33,822 nucleotides of DNA from Magnetococcales bacterium DCbin2. GTDB taxonomy: Bacteria > Pseudomonadota > Magnetococcia > Magnetococcales > UBA8363. Of this stretch, positions 1,736 through 33,822 are shown piece after piece. The stretch lies in assembly GCA_002753615.1 (NCBI GenBank), contig PEAO01000024.1:2078-35899 (forward strand), read 5' to 3'. The translations under genes and the position numbers were made by a program. The notes under the pieces were generated by a model, which saw only the letters and a program-made list of their open reading frames with translations, was not told where the DNA came from and searched no databases. Within the stretch, counting starts at the first letter, position 1. Each line of letters begins with the position of its first letter.

Positions 1736-1755
1736 GAAAGTCGGCTAATAACTTG

Positions 1756-1778
1756 CCCCCTCCCGCCAAGGGAGGGGG
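1756..1778. other. intergenic hairpin between two cytochrome genes
   Basis: A perfect 9-bp stem (CCCCCTCCC / GGGAGGGGG) encloses the loop GCCAA. It lies between the stop of the HAO-like gene and the start of the nonaheme-b gene. No U-tract follows, so it is more likely an mRNA-stability or processing element than a full terminator. It would let the two genes share a transcript at different levels, which is an inference. Confidence 0.6.
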
Positions 1779-1797
1779 TGGTCAGGAGGATTCATCC

Positions 1798-3810: not shown

Positions 3811-3828
3811 ACCTTGAAAGACTTAAAA

Positions 3829-3868
3829 CTCCCAGGGGGCTTTTCCGCCCCTGGGAGGTGTTTTTTTT
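3829..3868 (+). terminator. Rho-independent terminator of the HAO-like operon
   Basis: A GC-rich stem (CTCCCAGGGG with CCCCTGGGAG, loop around TTTTCCG) is followed at once by eight thymines at 3861-3868. It begins about 20 bases after the nonaheme-b stop codon, so it should end that transcription unit. Confidence 0.88.
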
Positions 3869-3895
3869 ACCGTGACCGTTTAGACCCCCCCCTTA

Positions 3896-4151
3896 AAATA
3901 TTGAAAGAAAAAAGGGGTCTGGGGGATTGCCCCCAGGGTTTTGACTTTGTTTTTGAATTTAAACAAAAATGTTTCCATGTTCCGCTTTTGACCTTGATTT
4001 TTGATCTTAAACAAAAATGTTTCCATATTTAAGTTTTTGGTTTAAATTAAAAAAACTAAAATCAAAAGCGAAACATGGAGACCTTTTTGTTTAAATTCAA
4101 AATCAAAACCCTGGGGTAATTCCCCCAGACCCCTTTTTTCTTTCAATATTT
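3896..4151. repeat. 256-bp imperfect inverted repeat, MITE-like
   Basis: The left arm (3896-3991) and right arm (about 4061-4151) are near reverse complements. Both begin at their outer ends with AAATATTGAAAG, and each contains a G-run/C-run palindrome flanked by GGGGTC or GACCCC. A direct repeat (AAACAAAAATGTTTCCAT) occurs inside at 3961-3978 and 4009-4026. The element is AT-rich between the G/C blocks and contains no transposase or credible coding frame. The layout suits a non-autonomous miniature transposable element, or a very long intergenic hairpin. I could not define a clean target-site duplication. It fills the gap between the two cytochrome operons. Confidence 0.65.
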
Positions 4152-4207
4152 ATCGAATGTCAACACGCCCTAGGCTGATAGGGCGGTGGAACAAAAAGGA
4201 CGTTTGC

Positions 4208-5818
4208 ATGGCTCGATCGACGTGGCGTGGCCTGATCGTTTTGGGATTATTGGCACTGTCCTGGTTTTTGGCTTCCACCGTCGTCATGGCTGATGATGTC
4301 AGTCGTAGCATCGCCCCTCCCACCTCGACGACTCGTCACAGTAAATTTCATATCTTAGACGGCCCTTTTGAGTCTGGCAGAGAGGTCACACGGGCCTGTC
4401 TGACCTGTCATACGGAGGCGGCCAACCAGGTCCGCCGCTCTGTCCATTGGACGTGGGAATACAAGTCTGCCGATTCCGACGAAAAAAAGGGTAAATTGCA
4501 TTTGCTCAATACGTTTTGCGGAACGGTATCGACCAACATGAGTTTGTGTACCTCGTGCCATGTTGGTTATGGCTGGCAGGAACCGGGGAACGATTCCGTG
4601 GTGGATGAACAGGTCGATTGCTTGGTGTGCCACGAACAAACCAGAAAATATAAAAAATATAATTATGGTTCGGCGGTATTGAAATATAAAGACCGTGTTC
4701 TCAAAAAACCGGACTTTCCGTCGATGGCCCACAGTGTCACGCGACCGACACGTTGGAATTGTGGATTCTGTCATTTTTACGGAGGTTCCGGCGATGGTGC
4801 CAAGCATGGTGATTTGGACTCCTCACTGTTTGATCCCAATCATCAGTTGGATGTCCACATGGATGCGGCGGGATTGAACTTTGATTGTGTCACCTGCCAC
4901 ACCGCCAATGATCATGCGATTACGGGATCGCGGTATGACATGAAAGCACAGGATCCCATCGGTGTGGATCGTCCCGGGCATACCGATGCCACACGGAGTT
5001 CTTGTGCCTCCTGCCATGGCAATGCGCCCCATGGCGATAAAAAAATCAACGATCATACCGATCGGGTTGCCTGTCAGACCTGCCACATTCCAAGGATGGC
5101 ACGCGGTGGTGTCGGAACCATGGTGTTCTGGGATTGGCGCACTGCTGGGAAGCGGGCGGGAGATTTGGAGCCGCCGGAGGCCTTTGAAAGGGAGGGGCAT
5201 ACCTCCAAAATGATGCATACCAAATATTCGGATAGTCATGGAACCTCGTGGTGGGCGGAGAATCTGGTCCCAAAATTTGCATGGTTTGACGGTCGCATTC
5301 GTTATCTTGATATCAAGCAAACGGTGGATGGTTCGGAATTGGTCCGTATCAACCGTATTCTGGGTACGCCGGGCAATCCGGCTGCCAGGATTTGGCCGTT
5401 TAAGAATACGTTGGCGATGATGCCCTATGATCCGGTCAATAAAATCATGATTGCCAATCATCTGATCAGGAATGCACCGGAAGATAAGGAGGCGTTTGAG
5501 GCCAGTTTTGATTGGCGTCGGTCGGCAGCGGTTGGCATGAAGGCGAAAGGGTTGCCATTCAGCGGTGAGGTCGCTTTTGTGGAAGCGGTTATGTCGTTTC
5601 CTTTGACCCATATGGTTGCCCCGAAGGGGGAGGCCCTTTCTTGTCTTGAATGTCATCGGGATGGTGGGCGATTGGAAGGTTTGGAGGGGGTGTACTTGCC
5701 AGGACGGAAAAACTTCCCATTGTTGTACGCCATCGGGATTGGAGCGGTGGTTGTGACGCTGATCGGGATTTTTATCCATGCGGCCATTCGTGGGTTGATG
5801 GCTTGGGGGAGGCACTAG
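4208..5818 (+). CDS. octaheme c-type cytochrome, tetrathionate reductase (OTR) family
   Basis: The 536-residue protein has a signal peptide (MARSTWRGLIVLG... VMA), eight CxxCH sites (CLTCH, CTSCH, CLVCH, CGFCH, CVTCH, CASCH, CQTCH, CLECH) and a C-terminal membrane helix (LLYAIGIGAVVVTLIGIFIHAAI). The arrangement CLTCHTEA...HWTWEY followed by NTFC...CTSCHVGYGW matches my memory of the octaheme tetrathionate reductase family first described from Shewanella. Those enzymes reduce tetrathionate and, in vitro, nitrite and hydroxylamine; the true substrate here is unknown. The start at 4208 is preferred to an in-frame ATG at 4157 because it directly begins the signal peptide and has AAGGACG upstream. 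The b-cytochrome gene begins 10 bases after the stop, so the two should form an operon and a complex. Confidence 0.87.
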   Translation: MARSTWRGLIVLGLLALSWFLASTVVMADDVSRSIAPPTSTTRHSKFHILDGPFESGREVTRACLTCHTEAANQVRRSVHWTWEYKSADSDEKKGKLHLLNTFCGTVSTNMSLCTSCHVGYGWQEPGNDSVVDEQVDCLVCHEQTRKYKKYNYGSAVLKYKDRVLKKPDFPSMAHSVTRPTRWNCGFCHFYGGSGDGAKHGDLDSSLFDPNHQLDVHMDAAGLNFDCVTCHTANDHAITGSRYDMKAQDPIGVDRPGHTDATRSSCASCHGNAPHGDKKINDHTDRVACQTCHIPRMARGGVGTMVFWDWRTAGKRAGDLEPPEAFEREGHTSKMMHTKYSDSHGTSWWAENLVPKFAWFDGRIRYLDIKQTVDGSELVRINRILGTPGNPAARIWPFKNTLAMMPYDPVNKIMIANHLIRNAPEDKEAFEASFDWRRSAAVGMKAKGLPFSGEVAFVEAVMSFPLTHMVAPKGEALSCLECHRDGGRLEGLEGVYLPGRKNFPLLYAIGIGAVVVTLIGIFIHAAIRGLMAWGRH

Positions 5819-5827
5819 AGGCTAGCC

Positions 5828-6862
5828 ATGGAAGAGAACCGCCAATTATTATTTTCCCGTTATGAGCGATTCTGGCATTGGTCACAGGCTTTACTGATCA
5901 TCGCTCTGATGGTGACTGGTTTTCATGTGACTGGCTTATTGCAATGGTTGGATTATAAACTGGCGGCCCAGTGGCATCGCTATTTTGCATGGAGCCTGAT
6001 CTGCTTATGGACGTTTACCATTTTTTGGCATCTCATCACTGGGGAGTGGCGGCAGTATATTCCCAGCACGGAAAAAATGTTGGAGGTTATCTACTATTAT
6101 TCAAAAGGGATTTTTGATCCGAATCTTCAGCATCCGTTCAAGGTGACGAGGCGTTTGAAGCATAATCCGTTGCAGAGGCTGACCTATCTGGTTTTGAGCG
6201 TTGTTATTTCTCCGATGTTGTGGATTTCCGGGCTGCTTTTCTTTTATTACAACGAATGGGATCAGTTGGGAATTCCCAACCTATGGCTTTCGGGTGTGGC
6301 TGCGGTCCATGTTGCCATGGCGTTTGCGATGGTTTGTTTTTTTTGTTTGCATGTTTATATGGTTTTCTTGGGTAAGCCCGCTACAGCGCAGCTTAAGGCA
6401 ATGCTCACGGGTTATAGGGTCGAGGATATTCGGCTGGATGCGGATCGGGAATATACGGTCATGCTGGTGGAAGATGATAGCGACTTTGCCCGGATGATTC
6501 AGGAATGGTTTGAGACGAATGGGGTGAATGAAACAGACAGAATATTACCGGTGCGTGTAACGATGGTTTGTATTGAAACATTGCATGAAGCGGTCAAATA
6601 TTTAAACAATAAATCGGTGGATTTGATTTTACTGGATCTTGATTTGCCCGACAGCCGGGGAGTTGAGACCCTGCGGAGCGTCATGTCTGTGATCCGGGAT
6701 GAGCCTGTTTTGGTGTTGACGGGGGAGGAGGATGAGAATTTGCAGTCCATGATCATTCGTGAAGGGGCGCAGGAATTTTTGATCAAAGAAAATCTGGATC
6801 GTCATCATTTGCTTCGTAAAGGTCGCTTTGCCATGGAGCGGCAATGGTTTTTACGGCAATGA
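5828..6862 (+). CDS. cytochrome b561-type membrane protein fused to a response-regulator receiver domain
   Basis: Residues 1-190 form a four-helix b-type cytochrome with candidate heme histidines at 17, 33, 49, 68, 161 and 175, a plausible quinol-side partner of the upstream OTR-family cytochrome. Residues 208-344 form a full receiver domain: acidic cluster VEDDSD at 214-219, phosphoacceptor Asp270 in LLDLDLPD, Thr298 in LTGE and Lys320 in FLIK. All residues needed for phosphorylation appear present. The reading frame is continuous, with no sign of a stop or restart at the junction, so the fusion seems genuine. The receiver would lie on the cytoplasmic side after the last helix. I infer that phosphorylation, or binding of a partner, could tune electron flow. 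No histidine kinase gene is in the window. Confidence 0.85.
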   Translation: MEENRQLLFSRYERFWHWSQALLIIALMVTGFHVTGLLQWLDYKLAAQWHRYFAWSLICLWTFTIFWHLITGEWRQYIPSTEKMLEVIYYYSKGIFDPNLQHPFKVTRRLKHNPLQRLTYLVLSVVISPMLWISGLLFFYYNEWDQLGIPNLWLSGVAAVHVAMAFAMVCFFCLHVYMVFLGKPATAQLKAMLTGYRVEDIRLDADREYTVMLVEDDSDFARMIQEWFETNGVNETDRILPVRVTMVCIETLHEAVKYLNNKSVDLILLDLDLPDSRGVETLRSVMSVIRDEPVLVLTGEEDENLQSMIIREGAQEFLIKENLDRHHLLRKGRFAMERQWFLRQ

Positions 6863-7032
6863 GATAAAATCCATAAGCGTCGTTACGTCGGCATCAATAC
6901 ACTACCTAAGATGAATTCCAAGATTTTTCCTGGCACGGCCAAAGCGAACACCGTCCCGATGCTGGTTTAGCGGGGGTGTGTACGAGCGGCTTGCGCACGT
7001 GCAACGAACCGTGAGCGTCTGTGTGTTTGGAG

Positions 7033-7107
7033 TGGAGCCGCCTCTCGGAATTGAACCGAGGGCCTGCTCATTACGAGTGAGCTGCTCTACCCCTGAGCTA
7101 AGGCGGC
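7033..7107 (-). tRNA. tRNA-Thr (anticodon CGU)
   Basis: Read on the minus strand, a full cloverleaf folds. The acceptor stem GCCGCCT pairs with AGGCGGC, the D arm is GCTC/GAGC, the anticodon stem is GCTCA/TGAGC with loop CTCGTAA, and the T arm CTCGG/CCGAG carries TTCAATT. The discriminator T is followed by an encoded CCA at 7033-7035. Anticodon CGT reads the threonine codon ACG. The 3' end points left, toward the cytochrome genes and away from the prophage. Confidence 0.96.
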
Positions 7108-7338
7108 CTTCCATCGCCCAATCCTATGTTTAATGATCACTGTCCGCAAGCAATTTTCGGCATAGGGAAAAAAAATGTGTCACGATTCTTAAAGATTGCG
7201 TGTGTTCGGCGTTTATCGTGACTTTTGCAAAATTCCTATGACTTAAGAATCTTCTGAAGTTCTTCATCTTGTTACTTTTTCGCCTTTGCGCTTCAATCCA
7301 TCCTGTTCGGTTACCGTTAATCCCAAACAGGAGTCATC
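7108..7338. other. left junction between tRNA and prophage late genes
   Basis: This gap has no credible gene. It carries an inverted repeat with 9-bp arms (GATTCTTAA at 7184-7192 and TTAAGAATC at 7243-7251), which could be an operator, an attachment-site arm or chance. It is more AT-rich than its surroundings. If the prophage has a left end in this window, it lies here, but I found no copy of this sequence at the right side. A GGAGT Shine-Dalgarno-like sequence (7330-7334) precedes the next gene. Confidence 0.4.
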
Positions 7339-20704: not shown

Positions 20705-20743
20705 ACCTAGTTTGAATCTAACTGGCGCGTTCGTTGCTATTTC

Positions 20744-20752
20744 TGTTAGAAT
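20744..20752 (+). promoter_or_regulatory. candidate extended -10 promoter of cassette B
   Basis: TG at 20744-20745, one base, then TAGAAT (20747-20752) is a good extended -10 element, 5 of 6 bases of the hexamer matching the consensus. No -35 of normal spacing is seen. It lies 62 bases ahead of the ATPase start, just after a terminator. Confidence 0.4.
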
Positions 20753-20813
20753 CTGGAGAATTTTTCTCCGATTGAGTGATTTCTCTTTCAAAAATCCGAA
20801 TCCAGAGGTTTGC

Positions 20814-22193
20814 ATGTTGTTACGTTTTGTGGTGGAAAACCTTTTCTGCTTTGCCGGGGAAACTTTGTTTTCCATGGTGGCGACCAAGGATGATGCGCAC
20901 TCGAACCATAAGGTCAAGACGGGCAGGGTGGATGCCCTGCGTATTTCCGCTTTGTATGGTGCCAATGCCCACGGAAAAACACGGTTGATTCGTGCCATGG
21001 CATTGGCTAAGCGGTTTATCACCGAAGGATTTAAACCGGGGCAGTCTATCCCTGTTAAACCCTTTCTTCTGGATAGCCACTGTCGTCAGAAACCTTCCCG
21101 TTTTGAATTTACTTTCATGGTTCAGGACGTTGAGTATGCATACGGTTTTGTTTGCGATACGAAACGGTTCCATGAGGAATGGCTTTTCTCTCGCCCCAAT
21201 AAACGCGAAGTGATGCTGTTTAGACGTGACACCAACGCTGAAGGGGTCAGCGAATTCGATATTGGGAGAACATTGGCCAGGGGGCGGATAGAAGATAGTA
21301 GTTTTCTAGGTTTTTTGATCAAGGGGGTACGTGCCAATGAATTATTTCTAACCCATGCGGTTGTAAACAATTTTACCGGATTAATGCCCGTATTTCATTG
21401 GTTCCAGAAATCTCTTATTATACTCGAAACTAATAATTTTTCTGTAAACCTTCCCAGATTGGTAGATGGTAACCAGGATCTACGTAATTTTATCGGGAAG
21501 TTCCTGAAGATTGCTGATACTGGGATTGTTGAAATAACAACAAAAAATGAGAAAACTAAATTTGATGATCTTGCCGATGAAGTTCGGAGGCAGATTCAGA
21601 AGTTTATCGGGAGTAAGGCTAAAGAAAGAGGTCAGGGGATGCATATTGTTATCAATGAAGAAACTGATCTGCCGATCGAGGATATGCTTGTTGAGAAAAT
21701 TACTCTCCTTGCGCAACACAATACTGCCGAAGGGGATGTCGTTCATTTTCCTCTTGAGGATGAATCTGCTGGTACCAATCGTTTACTGGAATTGCTACCT
21801 CTCTTGTATAATCGGTCTGGTTCGGAGAATGTCTATATCATTGATGAGTTGGATAGGACTTTACACCCTAGCCTGTCGCGACTTTTTATCGACACTTTCC
21901 TTAATTTAAGCCCCGACAACAAAAACCAATTGATTTTCACCACCCATGAAAGCAATCTTCTGGATCTTGACTTGTTGCGCCGTGATGAGATATGGTTTGT
22001 GGAGAAGGATACCGATGGAAAATCCCATCTTTATCCCTTGTCGAGCATGAAAATTCGCCCCGATGTCAACATCAAACGCGGTTATCTGCACGGTCGGTTT
22101 GGTGCCATCCCCTTCATCGGAAACACGACAGCCCTGGGTTGGAACAGGAAAGAAGAGACACACGAAATTGGTAAAGATTTCCAGGACGAATAG
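20814..22193 (+). CDS. AAA/ABC-type ATPase, RloA/AbiLi-like defence component
   Basis: This 459-residue ATPase starts MLLRFVVENLFCFAGETLFSM, as usual in the AAA_15/AAA_21 group, with Walker A GANAHGKT at 49-56. A long middle insertion follows, then SAGTNRLLELLPLL (signature-like), Walker B VYIIDELDRTLHP at 340-352 and the switch histidine in FTTHESNLLD at 375-384. It overlaps a RloB-family gene by 26 bases. This ATPase plus RloB pairing is known from RloAB and AbiL-type abortive-infection systems. The cassette lies between two adaptor paralogues and has its own promoter candidate, so it is probably expressed in the lysogen to exclude other phages. Its A/T content is visibly higher than that of its neighbours, a sign of separate origin. 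Confidence 0.82.
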   Translation: MLLRFVVENLFCFAGETLFSMVATKDDAHSNHKVKTGRVDALRISALYGANAHGKTRLIRAMALAKRFITEGFKPGQSIPVKPFLLDSHCRQKPSRFEFTFMVQDVEYAYGFVCDTKRFHEEWLFSRPNKREVMLFRRDTNAEGVSEFDIGRTLARGRIEDSSFLGFLIKGVRANELFLTHAVVNNFTGLMPVFHWFQKSLIILETNNFSVNLPRLVDGNQDLRNFIGKFLKIADTGIVEITTKNEKTKFDDLADEVRRQIQKFIGSKAKERGQGMHIVINEETDLPIEDMLVEKITLLAQHNTAEGDVVHFPLEDESAGTNRLLELLPLLYNRSGSENVYIIDELDRTLHPSLSRLFIDTFLNLSPDNKNQLIFTTHESNLLDLDLLRRDEIWFVEKDTDGKSHLYPLSSMKIRPDVNIKRGYLHGRFGAIPFIGNTTALGWNRKEETHEIGKDFQDE

Positions 22194-22767
22194 AAAAGTC
22201 GATTATCGTGGAGAACCTTCCCCTCGGGGTCGCTTTATTGTTATCGCCACCGAAGGTCGTGTAACAGAGAAACAGTATTTTGAATTTCTCCGATATACCA
22301 ATGTCCGGCTTGTTGTGCTGCCCACCGGGGAGGATAATTGTTCCTCTCCCGAATATGTTGTCGAACGCCTGAACAACTACAAAAAAAAGTTTGAGTTGAG
22401 AGCGGATGATGAGCTTTGGCTTGTGGTTGATGTGGACCGATGGAAATGTTTGCCTGCTGTTGCGGATGAGGCTTTGCGGAAAAAATATAAACTCGCCATC
22501 AGTAATCCGTGTTTTGAGGTTTGGCTTTTGTGCCACCGGCAAATCCCTTCCCAAGAACTCAAATCATGCGACGATGTTAAGGTTGCATTGAGGAAAGCAC
22601 TGGGAGGATCCTATAACGGTTCAAACCTGAACTCTGCCGATTTCATAGAGTCTATTGATCAAGCCACCCAGACTGCGCAACAACTGGACACGTCGCCCAA
22701 GAATCGTTGGCCTGTTGACACCGGCACCCACGTTTATAAAGTCGTTCAATCCATCCGTGCTTCCTAA
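22168..22767 (+). CDS. RloB/AbiLii-family protein, partner of the ATPase
   Basis: The 199-residue protein has RGRFIVIATEGRVTEKQYF near residue 19, VVDVDRW near 86 and SNPCFEVWLLCH at 112-123. These are the conserved blocks of RloB proteins (TEG and DxDxW suggest a Toprim-like nuclease, SNPxFExWL is diagnostic). The best start is TTG at 22168, because it puts the TEG block at the normal distance and has AGAAGAGA upstream. The only in-frame ATG (22063) would overlap the ATPase gene by more than 130 bases. It is probably the effector, activated by the ATPase when infection is sensed; this is inferred from the family. Confidence 0.82.
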   Translation: MVKISRTNRKVDYRGEPSPRGRFIVIATEGRVTEKQYFEFLRYTNVRLVVLPTGEDNCSSPEYVVERLNNYKKKFELRADDELWLVVDVDRWKCLPAVADEALRKKYKLAISNPCFEVWLLCHRQIPSQELKSCDDVKVALRKALGGSYNGSNLNSADFIESIDQATQTAQQLDTSPKNRWPVDTGTHVYKVVQSIRAS

Positions 22768-22934: not shown

Positions 22935-23963
22935 ATGACTGTTGGACTGACTAAAGGCAATGCCATTTCTCTCATCGGTTCCCGCTTTGGTAATCGCAGC
23001 GATTTGGATACCATCATCGAGGATGAATTGAACCTGGCTCAAACCCAGGCGTTGGAAGGGGGGGATTTTCTCCCTTGGTTTTTAATCCGCGAAGTGAAAA
23101 CCACCGTCCGTGCCGGGATGACACAGGTCTCCATGGACGCCCTAGGTTCCAGCGAATTGACGACCAATGGTGCGCTCTCCAGTGATTCCGGCTGGACCAA
23201 AGGGACGGGATGGACCATCACCGGGGGGAAGGCGGCTAGCGATGGTACCCAATCCACAACATCCGATCTGGAACAGGATATCTCCGTTACACAAAATAAT
23301 TATTATACCCTCCGGTTTACCCTTTCTGCCGTGACTGCGGGCAGTATTACCCCAAAAATTGCTGGGACTTCCGGTACCACCCGCACGACCAATGGTCTTT
23401 ATGAAGAACGGATCATGGCGGGAGCGGGGACGACGCCACGCTTGGAATTCTCCGCCGATGCCGATTTTATCGGTTCTCTGGATAACGTTTCGGTCTGGGG
23501 TGAGGGGGATGCCAAGCTATTGCGGGTCTATGAACATGGTGGCGTCTATTGGGGTACCGCCGGGGCCACTGCGCCGACATCGGAACTGTTGCGCGGTACT
23601 TATAAATATCTGTGGAGCAAACTCAATACCGAAAGTATTTCCACCCCGACCCATTATGCCATTCGTGGTCGTGATTTTGTTTTCTACCCGGTCCCTTCCG
23701 CCGATTTTGAATTGTTCAGCGTCGGCTATCATCGTGAAACACCGTTTGCCAGCCTTGCCACCGGCAATGCCAATGCGTGGCTCCGTCATGCCGCCGACTG
23801 GTTCGTTGCCGAAGCTTCCTATCGGGTCGCTTACCACCTGAAAGACAACGAGAGTCTGCAAAAATTTCAGCAGGAGGCGGCGCAGGCGCGGGCGCGGGTG
23901 ATGATGGCGCATCGTGCCAATGCCCATCCCACCGAGGTGATCACCCTGGGAGGGGCCGCCTGA
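22935..23963 (+). CDS. head-tail adaptor protein (copy 2) with an inserted sugar-binding-like domain
   Basis: Residues 1-50 (AISLIGSRFGNRSDLDTIIEDELNLAQ ... FLPWFLI) match adaptor copy 1, and the end (WFVAEASYRVAYHLKDNESLQKFQ) is the C-terminal helix of the fold. Residues 71-188 are an insertion with the look of a beta-sandwich carbohydrate-binding domain (GWTKGTGWTITGGKA ... YYTLRFTLSAVTAGSITPKI ... LEFSADADFIGSLDNVSVWG). The same type of domain is inserted in the tail-hub protein at residues 104-216. CAGGAG lies 9 bases before the ATG. Copy 1 lacks the insertion, so this copy may present the domain on the virion neck. Confidence 0.78.
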   Translation: MTVGLTKGNAISLIGSRFGNRSDLDTIIEDELNLAQTQALEGGDFLPWFLIREVKTTVRAGMTQVSMDALGSSELTTNGALSSDSGWTKGTGWTITGGKAASDGTQSTTSDLEQDISVTQNNYYTLRFTLSAVTAGSITPKIAGTSGTTRTTNGLYEERIMAGAGTTPRLEFSADADFIGSLDNVSVWGEGDAKLLRVYEHGGVYWGTAGATAPTSELLRGTYKYLWSKLNTESISTPTHYAIRGRDFVFYPVPSADFELFSVGYHRETPFASLATGNANAWLRHAADWFVAEASYRVAYHLKDNESLQKFQQEAAQARARVMMAHRANAHPTEVITLGGAA

Positions 23964-24880
23964 TGTATTGCAAATATGTCTACAAGGCAGCCGCCTCCAA
24001 GGCCAACATACTGGCCGATGTGGTGCAATTGCTGACGGGTGAGACGTCTCTTTCCAATCTTTCCTCCGACTGCAATGTCGGGGCATCCCAACTGGTGACT
24101 ACGGTGGCGGCGGGGTGGACGCTTCATGATGCCTCCGCCGCCACCAATGCCCGGTGTATCAAAGCACCCCTGGCGGACGAGGCCACCACATTCAAGTATA
24201 TGGTGATCGATACCAACACCACGGGGTACATTTTTGGCAAGGTGTATGAAACCTGGAACGCTACCGCCCACACCGGCACCAACTTGGCGTATACGTCTGA
24301 CAGCAGTTCGTATTGCCAACGGATTTCGACCAGCAGTTACCAGCTTTATATCTTTGCCTCTCCCCGATCCATTCTTATGTTTTCCTACACGGGTTCCTAT
24401 GGCAGTTCGACAGGAAATTCACCCAGCGGCGTTTTTGAACGGACCCGTGAAATGGCTTGGGATACCCCTGGTGCGGGATACCCCCCCTATGCCCACATCA
24501 ATTTTTATCAGGCCAATGGATCTGGGGTCATCTATCCACCGCGGACCAAACGCCGTTCCACCACCGATGGCACCGGAGCCACGGCGGTTTGCACACTGGG
24601 CAGCACCTATGTGACCCATCCCGGTACGTTTGCCGAAACAGGTGTGATCACGGATGGTGTCGGTGGGGAGTATGTCCCGCTTTTGCCGTTGATTATGACC
24701 CGTTGGAACTGTGGGACCACCGCTTATCCGGGGGGATACGGAAATTTTTCCAGTTTGTGCCACACCTTCATGATCCCTACCGGTGTATTCGCTGTTCTGG
24801 ATGAGTTTCAGGTAGGTTCCGAGACCTACATCGCCTTGAGTACATCAACCGGTGTTAAATATTGTGCAAGGAAAGCATGA
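23963..24880 (+). CDS. structural protein of unknown function, duplicated pair member 1
   Basis: The 305-residue protein starts MYCKYVYKAAASKAN and holds LLTGETSLSNLSSDC, TTVAAGWTLHD and FERTREMAWDTPGAGYPP. The next gene encodes a clear paralogue with the same blocks. It is rich in Tyr, Ser, Thr and Gly with predicted beta structure, like tail-fibre or virion-surface proteins. The start overlaps the adaptor stop (TGATG), so it is co-translated. I know of no named function. Confidence 0.75.
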   Translation: MYCKYVYKAAASKANILADVVQLLTGETSLSNLSSDCNVGASQLVTTVAAGWTLHDASAATNARCIKAPLADEATTFKYMVIDTNTTGYIFGKVYETWNATAHTGTNLAYTSDSSSYCQRISTSSYQLYIFASPRSILMFSYTGSYGSSTGNSPSGVFERTREMAWDTPGAGYPPYAHINFYQANGSGVIYPPRTKRRSTTDGTGATAVCTLGSTYVTHPGTFAETGVITDGVGGEYVPLLPLIMTRWNCGTTAYPGGYGNFSSLCHTFMIPTGVFAVLDEFQVGSETYIALSTSTGVKYCARKA

Positions 24881-25824
24881 TGTATTGTAAATATGTCTAT
24901 GATGCCGGCACGACCTATGCCAATTGGGCGTCCGATTTGGCCCAATTGTTGACGGGGGAAACCAGTCTTTCCAACCTTTCTTCTCAATGTATCGTGGAAA
25001 AATCGGAATTGATCACCACGGTTCCAGCGGGTTGGACACTCCACGATGATGCCCCTGGTGGAGACTATTATGTTTTGAAGGCACCATGGGCCGATGGCCA
25101 AGGGTACAAGTATGCCCTGGTCGGATCGGTATATGCCTCCGGCAATTATCTCAACCATTGCATTGGTTACCAAACGTGGGACGCCACGACCCATACGGGA
25201 GGCTCACCGATCTACCTGTCGGACAACGCGACCTATGCCCAACGGTTCAACCTGAATGGGGCGGGAACTTTGTATCTGTTCTCCAGTTCCAGATTTATCA
25301 TGATGTTGGGGGTGACGGCATCTGGACTGGTTGGTGGGAGTATTTATGCGGGACCGTCTGGAATTTTTGAGCATACCCGCGCCATGCCGTGGTGTACCGC
25401 CGACGAAGGGGTTCCGCCCTGGGGATGGACCAATTTTGCCTGGTCGGGTGGGTATGGTACCGGATTTGTCTTGGCGCGTGCCAAAAGGTGCTCGACCGGT
25501 TCCATGGAAAATTCGTGTTATGCCGCACTCAGAATACCGGGTGGGGGTATTTCCGATCTGAATTCGGGAATTTCGGAACGTTCCTTGACCGATCCGACCA
25601 CCCTGTCCCTCCAGATGTATCCCCTGATATTGACCGGATTTGGAATGAGCGAAGATTCCTTGGGCGCGGTCAATGGATACCATGGCAATCTTTCTAGCCT
25701 TTGCGATGTCTGGGGGGTGCAAACCGGGTGGCTCAACCTGGAAGACACGTTTACATGGAACAACCGCACATTTGTCTGCATCCTCAACGCAGGTGGTGTC
25801 AACATTGCCGCACGAAAGGAGTGA
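24877..25824 (+). CDS. structural protein of unknown function, duplicated pair member 2
   Basis: This 315-residue protein is the tandem paralogue of the preceding one: MMYCKYVYDAGTTYAN, LLTGETSLSNLSSQC, TTVPAGWTLHDD and FEHTRAMPWCTADEGVPPWG align in order. The two diverge most in the second half, as expected for surface proteins under selection. Two ATGs overlap the previous stop (24877 and 24880); I chose the first. A tiny gene follows three bases after its stop. Confidence 0.75.
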   Translation: MMYCKYVYDAGTTYANWASDLAQLLTGETSLSNLSSQCIVEKSELITTVPAGWTLHDDAPGGDYYVLKAPWADGQGYKYALVGSVYASGNYLNHCIGYQTWDATTHTGGSPIYLSDNATYAQRFNLNGAGTLYLFSSSRFIMMLGVTASGLVGGSIYAGPSGIFEHTRAMPWCTADEGVPPWGWTNFAWSGGYGTGFVLARAKRCSTGSMENSCYAALRIPGGGISDLNSGISERSLTDPTTLSLQMYPLILTGFGMSEDSLGAVNGYHGNLSSLCDVWGVQTGWLNLEDTFTWNNRTFVCILNAGGVNIAARKE

Positions 25825-26039: not shown

Positions 26040-27473
26040 ATGCCGCTTTTCACCGTATCGCAATTGGATCAATTTGGCATCATCAGCGACAAACCGGCGC
26101 ATACGCTGCCACCCAATGCGTTTTCTTCGGGGGCCAACGTCAAATTTACCGGAGGGGCTGCCCGCAAAGTGCAGGGGTATAAGGCGGTGTTGGGGACGTT
26201 GAGTACCGCACCCAACTTTTTGCGCTATATGTATGACCAGCTTTGTTATTGTGGTACCGATGCCGTCCATACCGTGAAAGACGGTACACATTATGAAATT
26301 ACCCGGACCACCAGCGGTGCCGATATGGTGTATGACGGGGGAATGAATGACTATGACGCTTCCAAACCCTGGTGGACCCTGGGGACCGGGTGGTCCATCA
26401 ATACGGGTACCGACAAGGCGCAATGCAACGGTTCCCAAACCAGTGTCAGCAGTCTTTCCCAGAATGTCACCATCAAGGCTGGGCGGTCTTATGTGGTTTC
26501 GTTCACCATTTCTGGTTATTCCGCTGGCAGTCTCACCCCCCAAGGTGGCGGAATCGCTGGTACCGCTCGCAGCGGCAACGGAACCTTCAACGAAACCATT
26601 ACCGCTACTTCCCCGACCAATACCTTGCTGGCCTTGGAGGCCAACGCCGATTTTGTTGGCGATGTGACCAATATTAGTTGTAACCAGACGCAAAGTGCCT
26701 ATAATGCCGAGCCGAATTTGGGGTGGAACGGCGATGCCTTGGGTGGGGTTGGCTATCTGAATAATTGTGTAGATGCCCCACAGATGTGGAATCCCCTGTC
26801 ACAAACCACCCGGCTGGCCAACTTGACCCACTGGCCTGCCGGCACCACCATTCGCAGTTTGCGGTTTTTCAAAGCGTTTCTCATCGGTATTTTTCCCACC
26901 AAAGGGGGGATTGCCTTTCCCCAGGTGATCAAGTGGAGCCACCCCACCGAACCCGGACAGGTGCCCGAAACTTGGGATATCGGGGACGCCTCCAAACTGG
27001 CCGGGGAGACCGTCATCGATGAAACCGGGTCCGCTTTGGTGGAGGGGATGCCCCTCAGGGATCAGTTTATTGTCTACAAGGATGATCAAATCTGGTCATT
27101 GACCTATGTTGGTCCTCCCTACGTCTGGAAGGTGGCCCCCGTGGTCAAGTCGGTGGGGCTGCTGGCCCAAAACTGTGTCGCCATGGTGGAAGGTCAACAC
27201 TATTGCATGAGCCGCGATGATTTATACGTGTTCGATGGCCACAATGCCAACAGCCTGTTGACTGGCCGCAATCGCGCCTGGTTGGAACAACAGATTGATC
27301 CCGATAATGGTCAACGAGCCTTCGTCAGCGTCAACCGCACCGAACGCGAAGTTTGGTTTTGTTTTCCCGAACGGTTATCATCCTGGTGTTCACTGGCCCT
27401 CACCTATAACTATGCCCACAATACCTGGGGTATCCGTGACCTCCCCAACGTCTCCTCCATGTCGGAGGTGTAA
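26040..27473 (+). CDS. tail hub/stopper-like protein, N-terminal part, with an inserted sugar-binding-like domain
   Basis: The 477-residue protein begins like podoviral tail-hub (tubular) proteins: DQFGIISDKPAHTLPPNAFSSGANVKF, a CxC stretch, then the beta-propeller-type repeats PLRDQFIVYKDDQIWSLTYVGPP and HYCMSRDDLYVFDGHNANSL. Residues 104-216 are an inserted beta domain also seen in adaptor copy 2. It ends abruptly after NYAHNTWGIRDLPNVSSMSEV, where family members as I remember them carry about 150-200 more residues ending W-x-L-x-GYTLEYE-x-x-G-x-Y. Exactly that kind of C-terminal module is found in the genes at 28800 and 30346. I infer that an ancestral hub gene was split by an insertion. 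The hub would seal the connector and bind fibres. Confidence 0.75.
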   Translation: MPLFTVSQLDQFGIISDKPAHTLPPNAFSSGANVKFTGGAARKVQGYKAVLGTLSTAPNFLRYMYDQLCYCGTDAVHTVKDGTHYEITRTTSGADMVYDGGMNDYDASKPWWTLGTGWSINTGTDKAQCNGSQTSVSSLSQNVTIKAGRSYVVSFTISGYSAGSLTPQGGGIAGTARSGNGTFNETITATSPTNTLLALEANADFVGDVTNISCNQTQSAYNAEPNLGWNGDALGGVGYLNNCVDAPQMWNPLSQTTRLANLTHWPAGTTIRSLRFFKAFLIGIFPTKGGIAFPQVIKWSHPTEPGQVPETWDIGDASKLAGETVIDETGSALVEGMPLRDQFIVYKDDQIWSLTYVGPPYVWKVAPVVKSVGLLAQNCVAMVEGQHYCMSRDDLYVFDGHNANSLLTGRNRAWLEQQIDPDNGQRAFVSVNRTEREVWFCFPERLSSWCSLALTYNYAHNTWGIRDLPNVSSMSEV

Positions 27474-27485
27474 AGGGTGGTAGGA

Positions 27486-27511
27486 GCCTGGGGAGCGGTT
27501 TTGCCCCAGGC
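27486..27511. other. hairpin at the left edge of cassette C
   Basis: GCCTGGGG/CCCCAGGC form an 8-bp stem with a 10-base loop, 13 bases after the hub N-part stop. The T-rich stretch follows 22 bases later (27533-27544), so it may not work as a terminator. The portal gene, too, is followed by a hairpin just ahead of its cassette. Confidence 0.5.
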
Positions 27512-27542
27512 CGTAAAAGTGAAGCCGACTGCGTTTTTTGTT

Positions 27543-27571
27543 TTGACCCGATAATCATTTCTTGCTACCGT
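27543..27571 (+). promoter_or_regulatory. candidate promoter of cassette C
   Basis: TTGACC and TACCGT are separated by 17 bases, 57 bases ahead of the first cassette C gene. The -35 is strong. The -10 keeps the same three consensus bases as the cassette A promoter, whose format is almost identical. Confidence 0.45.
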
Positions 27572-27627
27572 GACGAGTCATGTAGCTGTGGCAGAAATTC
27601 TTAACTAAGTGCCGGAAAGGTGTTTCT

Positions 27628-27855
27628 ATGTCTTTGTTTGCGTCCGATAGGAGACATATCGAGGAAATGGGTACCGAAATCCCTCTCCGTGTCAATCCAA
27701 TCATCAGCAGGGCCGCGATTGAAAAATTCTTGCGGGGTAGCCCCGGTGTGCCACTTTCTCCAATACGTGTGAGCAGAGGGCATGTGCGGGAGGGTGAGGG
27801 GGTCTCTGCCGAGGAGTTGGATCGTCGTACCATGAAAATTTTAGAGCAATGGTAG
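27628..27855 (+). CDS. cassette C, 75-residue protein of unknown function
   Basis: The product (MSLFASDRRHIEEMGTEIPL...) is basic and charged without a membrane segment. GGAAAGG lies 8 bases before the ATG. The last codons overlap the next gene, so the two are probably coupled. It could be a small regulator or antitoxin-like partner, but there is no motif to prove this. Confidence 0.6.
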   Translation: MSLFASDRRHIEEMGTEIPLRVNPIISRAAIEKFLRGSPGVPLSPIRVSRGHVREGEGVSAEELDRRTMKILEQW

Positions 27856-28646
27856 ACCAGGATCCGTATCGTAGTCGAGCGCAGTCTCTTCTGAAAAGCG
27901 AAAAAGTCCAGGGTGCGCTGGCCGATTTGGTTGCCAAATATTGGTGTGAGTTCCATCCGGTTTTCCGAACCGCTACTGGCGAAGAAAATGGCAGGCGTCC
28001 TGAAAACGTCAGCAACGAGATGTTCTCTTGCCTGCACCACATCGTCCGCGGGCTGGTGAATGTTGAAAATGAGACCGATTCCGCAAGAGAGATTCGCAAG
28101 GCTGTCGATTCCCACATCAAACGGGGTACGCTGGATTCCTACAAGATTGCCATCAACAGTATTTTGGAAGAAGACAAAGTACTCGTAGAGCTTCTGGACT
28201 ACATCCTGCTGGCTGACGATAATCTTGATGGTAATTTCAAAGACAGAATCACGCACATCAAGAGGATCCAACAACTCAAGCGGGAATGCAAGGTGGCCTA
28301 TATCGACGCCAAAAAAATGGAGGCCGAAGCGCAATGGTCGCGTGCCATTGCACGGTACGAAGCCGCCATGGGACTTGCGTTGAATATCCGGGATTCCCTG
28401 GCAACGATCCATGATGATCCTGTTACCGTTTCCTTTCTCGTCCGCGAGGGAAAGCGGCGCGGTGAGCGTGAAGAAGACGCTGCCAAGCGGCTTGAGGAAC
28501 GTAAACAGGATAAAAAGCATGACCTTGTGAAGGCCGTTGTTGTCGCCGTTATTTCAGCTACTTTGTCTGCCTTTATCACCCAGGCGATTGTTTCGTCTCG
28601 CAGCGGTGCAATGAATCACTCCAGTTCGGTCATTTTGTCCCGGTAG
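27849..28646 (+). CDS. cassette C, helical protein with a C-terminal membrane anchor
   Basis: This 265-residue protein is largely alpha-helical. It has HIKRIQQLKRECKVAYIDAKKMEAEAQ and SRAIARYEAAMGLALNIRDSLATI (a TPR-like helix pair) at about 137-190, a very charged helix (REGKRRGEREEDAAKRLEERKQDKK) and a C-terminal transmembrane helix (AVVVAVISATLSAFITQAIV). It overlaps the 75-residue gene by 7 bases. No catalytic motif is seen. A large cytosolic sensor-like domain with a C-tail membrane anchor would suit a membrane-acting exclusion factor, which is a guess. It sits between the parts of the split hub gene. Confidence 0.68.
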   Translation: MVDQDPYRSRAQSLLKSEKVQGALADLVAKYWCEFHPVFRTATGEENGRRPENVSNEMFSCLHHIVRGLVNVENETDSAREIRKAVDSHIKRGTLDSYKIAINSILEEDKVLVELLDYILLADDNLDGNFKDRITHIKRIQQLKRECKVAYIDAKKMEAEAQWSRAIARYEAAMGLALNIRDSLATIHDDPVTVSFLVREGKRRGEREEDAAKRLEERKQDKKHDLVKAVVVAVISATLSAFITQAIVSSRSGAMNHSSSVILSR

Positions 28647-28799
28647 ACCCCTGTAAGTATCATTATATTCTGTAACACACCCAAAAAATCCTCTTTGGAA
28701 AATCATGCCTGTCCGTCAAACCCGAAGCGACCGCTTTGGGAATTTTTGCGTCATTATCTTTTAAAAACAACAACAAATAGCCAAGTTTGGGAGGTTTCC

Positions 28800-30305
28800 T
28801 TGGGAGCTATTGATTATAATCTTTCTGCGTGGGGTCCGATTGTCGATGTTTCTGGTTCTGGAGGTTGCCTGTGTGGCGGATGCGATGCGGCGGTGGATGC
28901 CGATGGTACGATCTACATCTCCAGAGTGGTTCAAGGGGGGGCTGTTCATGTCGCCTCATCTTCTGATCGTGGTGCCACCTGGGTCGATTGCCAGGTGGTT
29001 GCGGGCGGTGTCGAATTTTACCGTCATGCCTCGGCTTTGGTGGTAGATGCCGCCGGTACCGTCCACCTGTTTTATGTGGACGCTGGTTATATCCCGCAAC
29101 ATGCCCGTTCCTTCGATGAAGGGGCGACCTGGAGCATTCAAGCCGTCACCAACGACCTTGACCATTGTTCGCGCCAGCTTGATGCCGTCTCCACCGGTAC
29201 GCGCTTGGTTCTCCTATTGCGCGATGATGACGATGGTTCTATCTATCTTGTGATTTCCGACGATTCCGGTGTCACCTGGAATGGACCGCGCTTGGTTGCA
29301 ACGGCCCTGCCTCACCTGGGTTGGGCCATCCACATGCGCTTGGCCATGGATGCCAGTGGCCATATTTATGTTTTGAGCGAAGCGATTATCGATGATCAAA
29401 GGGAAACGTTCATCACCCGGTCTGCGGACAGCGGTGTGACCTGGAAACCTTGGAGCAAAGATTGGAATGCCGGACAAGCCATGGCCGCCTCCCTTCATGC
29501 TTCCGGCAGGGGGCAACTGGTCATCGTCTATGTTGCAGGTCAAACTTTGACCGCCGCACTTTCCACCAATGGTGGTCATTCCTGGGTCTCCCGATCCATT
29601 CTGACCAGTCCGTTGGTGTTTGATCTTTGGTCTCCTCCTGGTCTTCTCAAAGATCCCAACGGCACCCTCCATGTGTTTGTCTATTTGGGAATGCTCCACA
29701 CGATTCGTCATGTCTATTCCACCAACAACGGGAACACCTGGATCCAAGGGAATGATGTGTTTACCGCCGCATCATGGAAAACCCCAGCCTTCATCCAACC
29801 CATTTGGGCCAACGGCAACTTGGCGGTTGCCACGACCATCGGTATCAGTACCACCGTGGGGAAGGTGCAGTTTGTCACCGGCGATATTGTGGTGATTCAT
29901 CAAACACCACGGTTAAGACGGGTCGAACCCGATTTTATCGCTTCGGGGGTCGGCAACCATTTTTATCTCATGGATGCTGGGGAAACCGGAAATGGATCGG
30001 TGATCCCCTCGGTGTTGGAACGGGTGGGATTGACGCCGGAAGGACCGGACACTGTGGTGACGGTCCTGGAGGTCTGGCCCGATTGCTCCATGAACACCGA
30101 TATCACCATCCAGGTGGGGAGTCAGATGTCCCCCGATGAAATGGTCCGTTGGCACCCACCCGTCGTACTCAATCCCTATACCGCCGATTTTGTTCCAGTA
30201 CGGGTGACCGGTCGTTTTATCGCTGTCCGCTTCATCATCGACATCGACTGCCAATGGGCCATGCATGGTTACACCCTGGTGTATGAAAAATGTGGCCGTT
30301 ATTAA
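28800..30305 (+). CDS. Asp-box beta-propeller adhesin with a hub-type C-terminal domain
   Basis: The 501-residue protein has six sialidase-type Asp boxes (SSDRGATW, SFDEGATW, SDDSGVTW, SADSGVTW, STNGGHSW, STNNGNTW), the mark of a six-bladed beta-propeller that binds or cuts glycans. I do not see the full arginine set of active sialidases, so binding is as likely as catalysis. Residues about 370-501 (RLRRVEPDF ... FYLMDAGETGNGS ... VRVTGRFIAVRF ... HGYTLVYEKCGRY) repeat in the next gene as a module typical of hub C-termini. The TTG start at 28800 has GGGAGG upstream and gives MGAIDYN, parallel to MGSIDFS of the next gene. It is a likely receptor-binding protein. Confidence 0.78.
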   Translation: MGAIDYNLSAWGPIVDVSGSGGCLCGGCDAAVDADGTIYISRVVQGGAVHVASSSDRGATWVDCQVVAGGVEFYRHASALVVDAAGTVHLFYVDAGYIPQHARSFDEGATWSIQAVTNDLDHCSRQLDAVSTGTRLVLLLRDDDDGSIYLVISDDSGVTWNGPRLVATALPHLGWAIHMRLAMDASGHIYVLSEAIIDDQRETFITRSADSGVTWKPWSKDWNAGQAMAASLHASGRGQLVIVYVAGQTLTAALSTNGGHSWVSRSILTSPLVFDLWSPPGLLKDPNGTLHVFVYLGMLHTIRHVYSTNNGNTWIQGNDVFTAASWKTPAFIQPIWANGNLAVATTIGISTTVGKVQFVTGDIVVIHQTPRLRRVEPDFIASGVGNHFYLMDAGETGNGSVIPSVLERVGLTPEGPDTVVTVLEVWPDCSMNTDITIQVGSQMSPDEMVRWHPPVVLNPYTADFVPVRVTGRFIAVRFIIDIDCQWAMHGYTLVYEKCGRY

Positions 30306-30345
30306 GGGAAAATTTCAAACCTTAAGTGGAACAGGAGAAACTACG

Positions 30346-30810
30346 ATGGGATCCATCGATTTTTCAACCTATGGGGTGGGTGATCGCTACCGACGTACCG
30401 AACCCGATCTGCTGATGGCCTCCGCAGCGAACCAAAAGATCTATCTTTGCGATGCGGGTGAAAGTGCCGACGGGGTTGCCATGACCGCAACCTTGACCCG
30501 GGAAAGCCTTCCCATCGGTGGAGGCGGTCCGGGACAGTTTCAAATCAGTGATTTATGGCCCGATATGGAGTCTACCGGTGCGGTAGATATTCAACTGGGA
30601 TTTCAGAAAAAATTGGGGGACGCCATTACCTGGGGGACAGCGCACGCATTTGATCCCGGTACCCATTCCCATTTTGCCGAGGCCTGTCAGAGCATTGCCG
30701 ATTTGGCGATGACTGGCCGTTTTATCGCCATCCGTTTTCAAAGTACCACCGACATGGGTTGGACCCTATTGGGTTATACCCTGGAATTTGAACCACAAGG
30801 GAAATACTGA
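30346..30810 (+). CDS. stand-alone hub C-terminal domain protein
   Basis: This 154-residue protein is a paralogue of the last 130 residues of the preceding adhesin: YRRTEPDLLM, IYLCDAGESADG, LTRESLPIGG, ISDLWPDMES, MTGRFIAIRFQS and LLGYTLEFEPQGKY align in order. It starts at 30346 after CAGGAG, although the frame stays open upstream into the previous gene. It probably completes the tail hub whose N-terminal part is encoded at 26040. Confidence 0.75.
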   Translation: MGSIDFSTYGVGDRYRRTEPDLLMASAANQKIYLCDAGESADGVAMTATLTRESLPIGGGGPGQFQISDLWPDMESTGAVDIQLGFQKKLGDAITWGTAHAFDPGTHSHFAEACQSIADLAMTGRFIAIRFQSTTDMGWTLLGYTLEFEPQGKY

Positions 30811-30813
30811 CCA

Positions 30814-31077
30814 ATGATTGCAAATTTAGGTGCTGTTTATGGTGTCAATCTACCCCCTGCCCAACCTGAGCAATTGGGATCCTGGGTTTACCAGGAACTC
30901 AGTCGAATCGCCAATGCCACACGCGAGGCCAAAGAGATAGTCACACTGGTGGTGCTGCATACCGCGCCGACCAAATCGGAGGATGGTAACCTGGTGTATG
31001 CCGATGGTACCCACTGGAATCCCGGCTCCGGGGGAGGATTTTATGGCCGTGAAAATGGTCAATGGATCAAATTATAA
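30814..31077 (+). CDS. small tail-associated protein of unknown function
   Basis: The 87-residue product (MIANLGAVYGVNLPPAQPEQ...) has an N-terminal helix (LGSWVYQELSRIANATREAKE) and a C-terminal DGTHWNPGSGGGFYGRENGQW pattern common in short proteins near podoviral tail genes. It lies three bases after the previous stop. Its role is not known. Confidence 0.7.
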   Translation: MIANLGAVYGVNLPPAQPEQLGSWVYQELSRIANATREAKEIVTLVVLHTAPTKSEDGNLVYADGTHWNPGSGGGFYGRENGQWIKL

Positions 31078-32918: not shown

Positions 32919-32996
32919 AGTAAGGGAGAGTGTCTTGATGGATTCCTGGCGGGTCCAGGTATTAACGCAATGAAGTTGTCGATGGGAGTTGATGAC

Positions 32997-33822
32997 ATGG
33001 CCGAGGATACTGGTTTCGATGTTGGCGAAGACCAAGGGGAACAGAACGAAGAACGGCAGAATCTGGATGATATGACGGTTCTTCAGGACGTTCGAACCCA
33101 GGATCTCGGCGCGGAAGAAAATATCAGTGCCAGTGGTGAAGGGGTTGCCGAACAGGTCGATGCCGCTGCCATACAGATGGGCAGTGATCGAGGGCGTGTC
33201 GAAGAGGGGTCGATCGATGGCATCAGTTCCCTGGCGAGTGGTATCAACAACGCCATGGACATTGCTCAGGAGGCATCTGCATTTGAATCTTCTGGAACAC
33301 CAGGGGATGGTGCTGCCCCTTCAGCTTCTCGTGTCACGACGGCATCACCCCAAGGTGATTCCTCAGGAACAGAACCCGGTACCAATCCAGATCAGACCGA
33401 TTTGGATCCTGTTGCCGGTGTCGATGGTGGTGGCGTTGGGGCTGCGAGTCCCGACGAGCCGACGGATGATGCGGGTGAAGCGAACTCAACGGCGGGTGGA
33501 TCCGTTCCTGGCATTTCAGATGGCGCACAGGATGCAACCGTTCCGGCTCCAGGTCAGACGGTCACGGGTGGTGTAACAACGCCAGAGCTAACGCCGGAAT
33601 CGACGCCAGAGCCAACACCAGAGCCAACACCGGAACCGACGCCAGAGCCAACACCGGAACCGACGCCAGAGCCAACACCGGAACCGACGCCAGAGCCAAT
33701 GCCGGAACCGACATCAGAGCTAACGCCAGAGCCAATGCCGGAACCGACATCAGAGCTAACGCCGGAACCGACACCAGAGCCAATGCCGGAACCGACACCA
33801 GAGCCAATGCCGGAACCGACAC
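32997..33822 (+). CDS. acidic protein with TPEP repeats, partial (runs off the window)
   Basis: The frame is open from 32997 to the end. The first 190 residues are acidic and low in complexity ([20 protein letters not shown]...), with a helical stretch ([26 protein letters not shown]). The repeat [16 protein letters not shown] follows. There is no signal peptide at this start. GGGAG lies 9 bases before the ATG. An in-frame ATG at 32970 would add nine residues but has a weaker site. Such proline/acidic repeats are extended spacers in surface or cell-envelope proteins. The C-terminal part, which would tell the function, is outside the window. Confidence 0.7.
33579..33822 (+). repeat. 12-bp coding tandem repeat (TPEP-type units)
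   Basis: Twenty full units of 12 bases plus a partial one follow without interruption. Codons alternate between CCA GAG CCA and CCG GAA CCG sub-types, giving 24- and 36-base higher-order units (TPEP-TPEP and [12 protein letters not shown]). The 12-base period also keeps the reverse strand open (as VPALALAS-like), which is a by-product and not a gene. Copy number should vary between strains. Confidence 0.92.

Follow-up and report, generated by a model that had tools for sequence, protein, structure and literature searches.

Podoviral tail nozzles close the tail channel and carry the fibres, and those homologues of known structure that the searches matched (Pa223, VP1, and SU10) each consist of a single chain. 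In T7, the nozzle protein gp12 runs from N-terminal platform strands through a propeller and a fibre dock, which connects the propeller with the platform, to a C-terminal platform, and the jelly roll of this platform has nine strands, three of which are contributed by the N-terminal 45 residues (PMC6702177). The platform touches the adaptor in both T7 (PMC6702177) and SU10 (PMC9509320). The SU10 nozzle (PDB 7z47_G) carries immunoglobulin (Ig)-like domains between blades 2 and 3, and a separate trimeric fibre holds Trp839, Trp847, and Trp857 of its short-tail-fibre dock loop (PMC9509320). In the bruynogheviruses and Bjorn (PaP3 gp13, Bjorn gp59, and PDB 9nwi_Y of Pa223), the nozzle is one gene of 513-516 amino acids (aa), with a dock loop bearing three Trp residues and without an adhesin propeller. 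Here we describe a stretch of 33,822 nucleotides (nt), referred to as the window, from a 35.9-kb contig (PEAO01000024.1) of the genome of Magnetococcales bacterium DCbin2, in which the nozzle is divided among three genes: a hub that ends ahead of the dock loop, and two downstream genes that each encode the missing C-terminal module (C-module), one of them fused to an Asp-box propeller. The relatives used for comparison are, like the window, metagenome assemblies.

The nozzle of the window is homologous to those of the bruynogheviruses and Bjorn over its N-terminal segment, propeller, and C-module, and, where they have a fibre/anchor gene next, is followed by a putative anchor gene; it differs from them in its three genes, in having lost almost all of the dock loop, and in an extra domain in its N-part. 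Homology to SU10 covers the propeller and the C-terminal region, and the portal of the window also belongs to the SU10_portal family; SU10 differs in its separate docked fibre and its Ig-like domains. The order of domains is identical to that of T7 gp12, which is one chain and to which the searches run gave no sequence match.

A nozzle in three genes

The hub product matches PHROG3287 (E 5e-76, positions 12-352 of 524) and 9nwi_Y, described in the PDB as Pa223 tail (E 1e-53), and covers positions 1-352 of a profile, A1, that has 517 positions and was made from ten unsplit nozzles. Its N-terminal platform strands (residues ~1-50) and its propeller, of the seven-blade type, are homologous to those of solved nozzles in both profile and PDB searches, and the chain stops just ahead of the fibre-dock loop. 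A continuation of the hub past 27473 in another frame was searched for and none was found. The original prediction, made from the DNA letters alone, that the hub stops after its propeller-bearing N-part is thus borne out. The N-terminal platform segment has been retained, with 56-100% identity over residues 1-50.

The C-terminal platform is present, yet as two separate genes. The end of PHROG3287 is matched by the lone module (398-523) and by the end of the Asp-box protein (415-523), both match the end of the A1 profile (Table 1), and the two modules are similar to one another (BLASTP E 1e-21, 33% identity). That the module occurs twice downstream, as had been predicted, is therefore confirmed, and dissimilarity of the two modules, which had been named as a ground for abandoning the idea, is not what was found. 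The A1 columns between 353 and 381, corresponding to the dock loop, are the sole stretch without a clear counterpart in the three genes. A scan with the lone module alone gave nothing further. Both downstream genes open with MG(A/S)ID(Y/F), a shared start that had been noticed earlier and that recurs as MG[ASTG][IM][DN][YF] in every relative read; the broader pattern GxI[DN][YF] has only four occurrences in the six-frame translation of the window, and these gene starts account for two. Each start has a good Shine-Dalgarno sequence ahead of it (GGGAGG for the TTG at 28800, and AGGAG for the ATG at 30346).

Single chains were predicted with AlphaFold2 (AF2). The model of the lone module has a predicted local distance difference test score (pLDDT) of 72 and reaches confidence mostly in residues 48-151, a region of six strands, and its Foldseek matches in the PDB at E<=1e-3 are nozzles only (9nwi_Y, 8zkk_O, 7z47_G, and 7z4b). 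Its N-terminal 45 residues are modelled without confidence, as might be expected if this part needs a partner.

Table 1. Location of the nozzle genes and of other features, in positions of the window
Feature	Position	Strand	Basis or remark
Tail nozzle protein, N-part (hub), 477 aa	26040..27473	+	PHROG3287, PDB 9nwi_Y, A1 profile
Extra domain inserted in nozzle, residues ~93-214	26316..26681	+	Gap between the hub's two profile matches
Upstream tail gene with the nozzle's extra domain	22935..23963	+	Sequence match
Variable cargo stretch, nozzle N-part to Asp-box gene	27474..28799	+	Varying gap and genes in relatives
Cargo open reading frame (ORF), 265 aa, hydrophobic C-terminal stretch, no assigned function	27849..28646	+	Homologues in L013, L016, and G044 (53-99% identity)
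Asp-box propeller fused to nozzle C-module, 501 aa, TTG start	28800..30305	+	BNR_2, PHROG3287 415-523, AF2/Foldseek
Nozzle C-module (platform, C-part), end of Asp-box protein	29910..30302	+	A1 profile 394-516, E 4e-22
Lone nozzle C-module, 154 aa	30346..30810	+	A1 profile 382-517, E 9e-27
Putative short-tail-fibre N-terminal anchor homologue, 87 aa, without shaft or tip	30814..31077	+	Family profile
Multihaem-cytochrome and cytochrome b561-type genes, bacterial	203-6862
tRNA-Thr	7033-7107		Between cytochrome genes and phage genes
Terminase	9344
Portal, SU10_portal family	11431		PF23899
Major head protein	16233

A break at the fibre dock

The position of the break can be read from the dock loop of unsplit nozzles. 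Three Trp residues (W366, W373, and W380 in Bjorn) are invariant across the ten A1 nozzles and, when the A1 profile is aligned with the SU10 nozzle (E 4.5e-61), coincide with Trp839, Trp847, and Trp857. Among unsplit nozzles in IMG/VR, 67 of 80 have such a triple in the linker between propeller and platform, several others having Phe, Tyr, or Met instead, and none of the 80 has one within residues 1-330. Given this alignment and the domain order of T7, the propeller/dock boundary is where the hub ends, and the C-module corresponds to the C-part of the platform. The three aromatics of the loop are missing from the window, which has no more than a single aromatic close to each downstream start. 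The base of the loop reads AYGIIDPKESNLW in unsplit nozzles, [L/M]GAIDYNLSAW in the Asp-box proteins, and MGSIDFSTY or MGSIDFTTW in the lone modules. Both downstream genes thus open with the base of the dock loop, of which they perhaps keep the first aromatic, and the remaining loop is lost.

One other nozzle divided within the dock loop was found, on the IMG/VR contig 3300049846_002530 (L008). There the N-part, lengthened to 1087 aa by other domains, matches A1 up to position 368, and the match resumes at 371 in a 440-aa protein encoded upstream (genes L008:365-1687 and 3998-7261), so that the break falls between the first and second Trp of the loop. In contrast to the window, the C-module of L008 lies upstream on a repeat-rich protein, is not duplicated, and has no Asp-box propeller. 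A search for close relatives found no second genome with this arrangement, and an assembly problem is possible. The L008 split is likely independent of that in Magnetococcales.

Conservation and history

Homologues of the hub are found in further Magnetococcales genomes at 61-98% identity, and the split nozzle is shared by a prophage family of magnetotactic bacteria. Nine nozzle genes from eight Magnetococcales genomes share a common end, SMSEV or AMAEV, followed by TAA, TAG, or TGA, and the nozzle is split in every relative read. Relatives naturally ending at SMSEV had been put forward as evidence against a truncated hub; they do exist, but they share the split, so that the state is old and conserved, and the view that the hub was once longer stays. 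The Asp-box gene and the lone module follow wherever the relative's contig is long enough; the contig of G041 ends 1.3 kb past the Asp-box gene, a stretch without the lone module, and two other copies of the locus in G029 are partial or masked. The one complete G029 locus is tightly coupled, with a gap of 1 nt from hub to Asp-box gene and an overlap of 1 nt between the Asp-box gene and the lone module. Compared with four relatives of the same genus that have all three genes, the ratio of nonsynonymous to synonymous substitution rates (dN/dS) spans 0.03-0.06 in the hub, 0.12-0.15 in the Asp-box gene, and 0.04-0.10 in the lone module, indicating purifying selection on all three.

In a tree of C-modules, with moderate supports and some long branches, the lone modules (91/89) and the Asp-box modules (86/81) form separate clades that join (94/80) against nine unsplit nozzles. 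These clades point to one duplication that took place before the phages of two host families diverged; its wide distribution is the reason for treating the unsplit nozzle as ancestral. That the module was detached and duplicated, as first proposed, is thus well supported. A split nozzle is not described in the open-access literature searched, which is weak evidence, as subscription journals lay outside the search. Among the unsplit nozzles, one (L117:3471-4961) has a single in-frame stop after residue 208, reflecting sequencing error, decay, or recoding, and was set aside.

The extra domain of the nozzle is absent from unsplit relatives. Most of it (26373-26681) matches 23193-23495 in the upstream tail gene of Table 1 with 41% identity over ~103 residues. 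Because the nozzle of G029 (L063) has the domain and the tandem homologues of the upstream gene there are without it, a transfer of the domain from one tail gene to another has taken place.

The Asp-box propeller

The Asp-box protein matches BNR_2 above the cut-off (E 4e-13) and contains six repeats of Ser-x-Asp-x-Gly-x-x-Trp. Its AF2 model (pLDDT 66 overall, mostly 70-90 in the propeller) has about 27 strands and probably seven blades. Foldseek relates the model to the PLL/PHL fucose lectins of Photorhabdus (template modelling, TM, score ~0.7 on the target), BT3686, glycoside hydrolases, and sialidases. The predicted fold is thus of the PLL/PHL type, at an identity of only 13-17% to the seven-bladed PLL/PHL lectins, BT3686, and Asp-box sialidases; unlike these, the propeller of the window is fused to a nozzle module. 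No Asp-box fusion was found in other phages in IMG/VR, and in INPHARED nearly all matches of the protein are with its C-module, in full-length nozzles. Within the genus, the closest relative excepted, the propeller has diverged more (57-74% identity) than its own C-module (70-80%). Near the N-terminus of the propeller (28863-28883), a CLCGGC motif is invariant in all relatives and is a possible metal site or source of disulfides.

What the divided nozzle may do

In the reading that we favour, without great certainty, a separately made C-module completes the platform in trans, and a glycan-binding adhesin is displayed, by the half that bears the propeller, at the usual position of the fibre dock. 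An ancestral one-piece gene (N-platform strands, propeller, fibre-dock loop, and C-platform) would have been severed at the dock-loop base; the part running from there (GxID...) to the end of the gene would have become independent and been duplicated. One copy would have acquired the Asp-box lectin-like propeller in place of the remaining dock loop, leaving the other as a bare platform half. The hub, with its N-terminal platform strands, would complete the platform jelly roll in trans using one C-module, and the strand count of T7 would be reached if the hub N-terminus added three to the six predicted for the lone module. With the Asp-box version, the propeller would sit on the outer flank of the nozzle, the site of trimeric short tail fibres in relatives; with the lone version, the dock position would be left bare. 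The conserved natural split at the fibre dock probably shows that the platform can be completed in trans. The earlier proposal that the propeller is mounted on the tail for receptor binding agrees with the lectin-like model and with a break that falls at the dock loop. Whereas the split, the duplication, the homology of the parts, their conservation, and the place of the break are established, trans-completion, a location in the virion, and receptor binding are inferences.

Several observations weigh against this reading. The AF2 models are of moderate quality (pLDDT 72 for the lone module and 66 for the Asp-box protein), with the C-module weak within the Asp-box model; lectin-like folds can equally be enzymes; the reading leaves the stoichiometry of two C-modules to six nozzle positions without explanation; and the anchor gene is under purifying selection (dN/dS 0.03-0.05 where computable) despite the loss of the three-Trp dock. 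A tentative extension, possible but doubtful, is that the hexamer mixes bare and propeller-bearing positions through interchangeable platform halves, and that the dock loop is a recurrent point of fission and insertion at which a docked fibre is swapped for a built-in adhesin. The split points to the dock loop as an exchange site for receptor-binding parts, and the locus offers a testable system for tails that trade docked fibres for built-in adhesins.

It is less probable still, though deserving of some weight, that labour is divided, the lone C-module alone completing the nozzle and the Asp-box protein serving as an additional fibre or enzyme bound at another site, either the adaptor or a second ring. 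The two paralogues were fixed before the host families diverged, each with conserved features of its own, and the lone module lies directly ahead of the fibre-anchor gene, where unsplit relatives have their nozzle C-terminus; however, both modules keep the core of the nozzle profile, and there is no evidence for a second site. A role for the modules outside the virion, for example in chaperoning assembly or as free decoy or lectin proteins, with the hub working on an incomplete platform, seems improbable: a 154-aa gene taken alone could encode an assembly factor, but the module is part of the virion chain in unsplit nozzles (9nwi, 8zkk, and 7z47), the platform contacts the adaptor in T7 and SU10 (PMC6702177, PMC9509320), and the hub retains its N-terminal platform segment. 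An artefact or decay, whereby a frameshift, recent lesion, assembly error, intron, or cargo insertion broke a one-gene hub, could draw on the cargo stretch between hub and Asp-box gene and is for practical purposes already refuted by the shared stop site of the nine nozzle genes with its three different stop codons, by relatives that lack cargo (gaps of 1 and 69 nt) and are split too, by the strong purifying selection, by the separate ribosome-binding sites, and by the absence of an Rfam match to an intron or other RNA linking hub and Asp-box gene.

Cargo stretch and fibre anchor

The gap between hub and Asp-box gene is 1, 69, 255, 1291, 1326, 1361, or 2138 nt across relatives, with differing genes. 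It holds an Acb2-type anti-CBASS protein in L017 (PF24729, E 3e-19), the candidate defence pair HEC-01A/B in L019, the 265-aa protein in the window and some relatives, or no cargo. The compactness of the G029 locus suggests that cargo entered an operon that was already split. Scans of the cargo stretch for terminators and promoters gave results at chance level. The space between the nozzle and Asp-box genes is a hotspot of defence and counter-defence cargo (L017, L019, L016, L014, and L018).

A profile of the anchor family without Pseudomonas phages finds the gene following unsplit nozzles, with E down to 1e-21, and the Bjorn and PaP3 fibres at only 1e-3. With Pseudomonas phages included, residues 1-81 of PDB 9nxp_A are matched, a partly circular result. 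The family is thus clear among many phages, its link to the Pa223 fibre being strong only with near relatives of that fibre in the profile. The idea that the 87-aa anchor is a remnant of dock loss is weakened: because equally short anchors follow unsplit nozzles in L010, L011, and several other contigs, the split does not account for its size. The anchor family (E 2e-21) also includes a short ORF, so far unannotated, that follows the nozzle gene of Microcystis phage Mel-JY34 (approximately L001:6578-6823).

Other features of the window

The phage genes lie beside the tRNA gene and read as a prophage. Within the structural gene cluster, an AAA_21 ATPase and RloB pair (20712-22767) resembles AbiLi/AbiLii (PADLOC E 1e-84 and 4e-20). 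The tail region also contains two adjacent genes that are paralogues in tandem (23956-25824; MYCKYVY...LLTGETSLSNLSS). At the end of the window (32970-33822), a long Pro-Glu-Pro-Thr repeat continues to the end of the contig.

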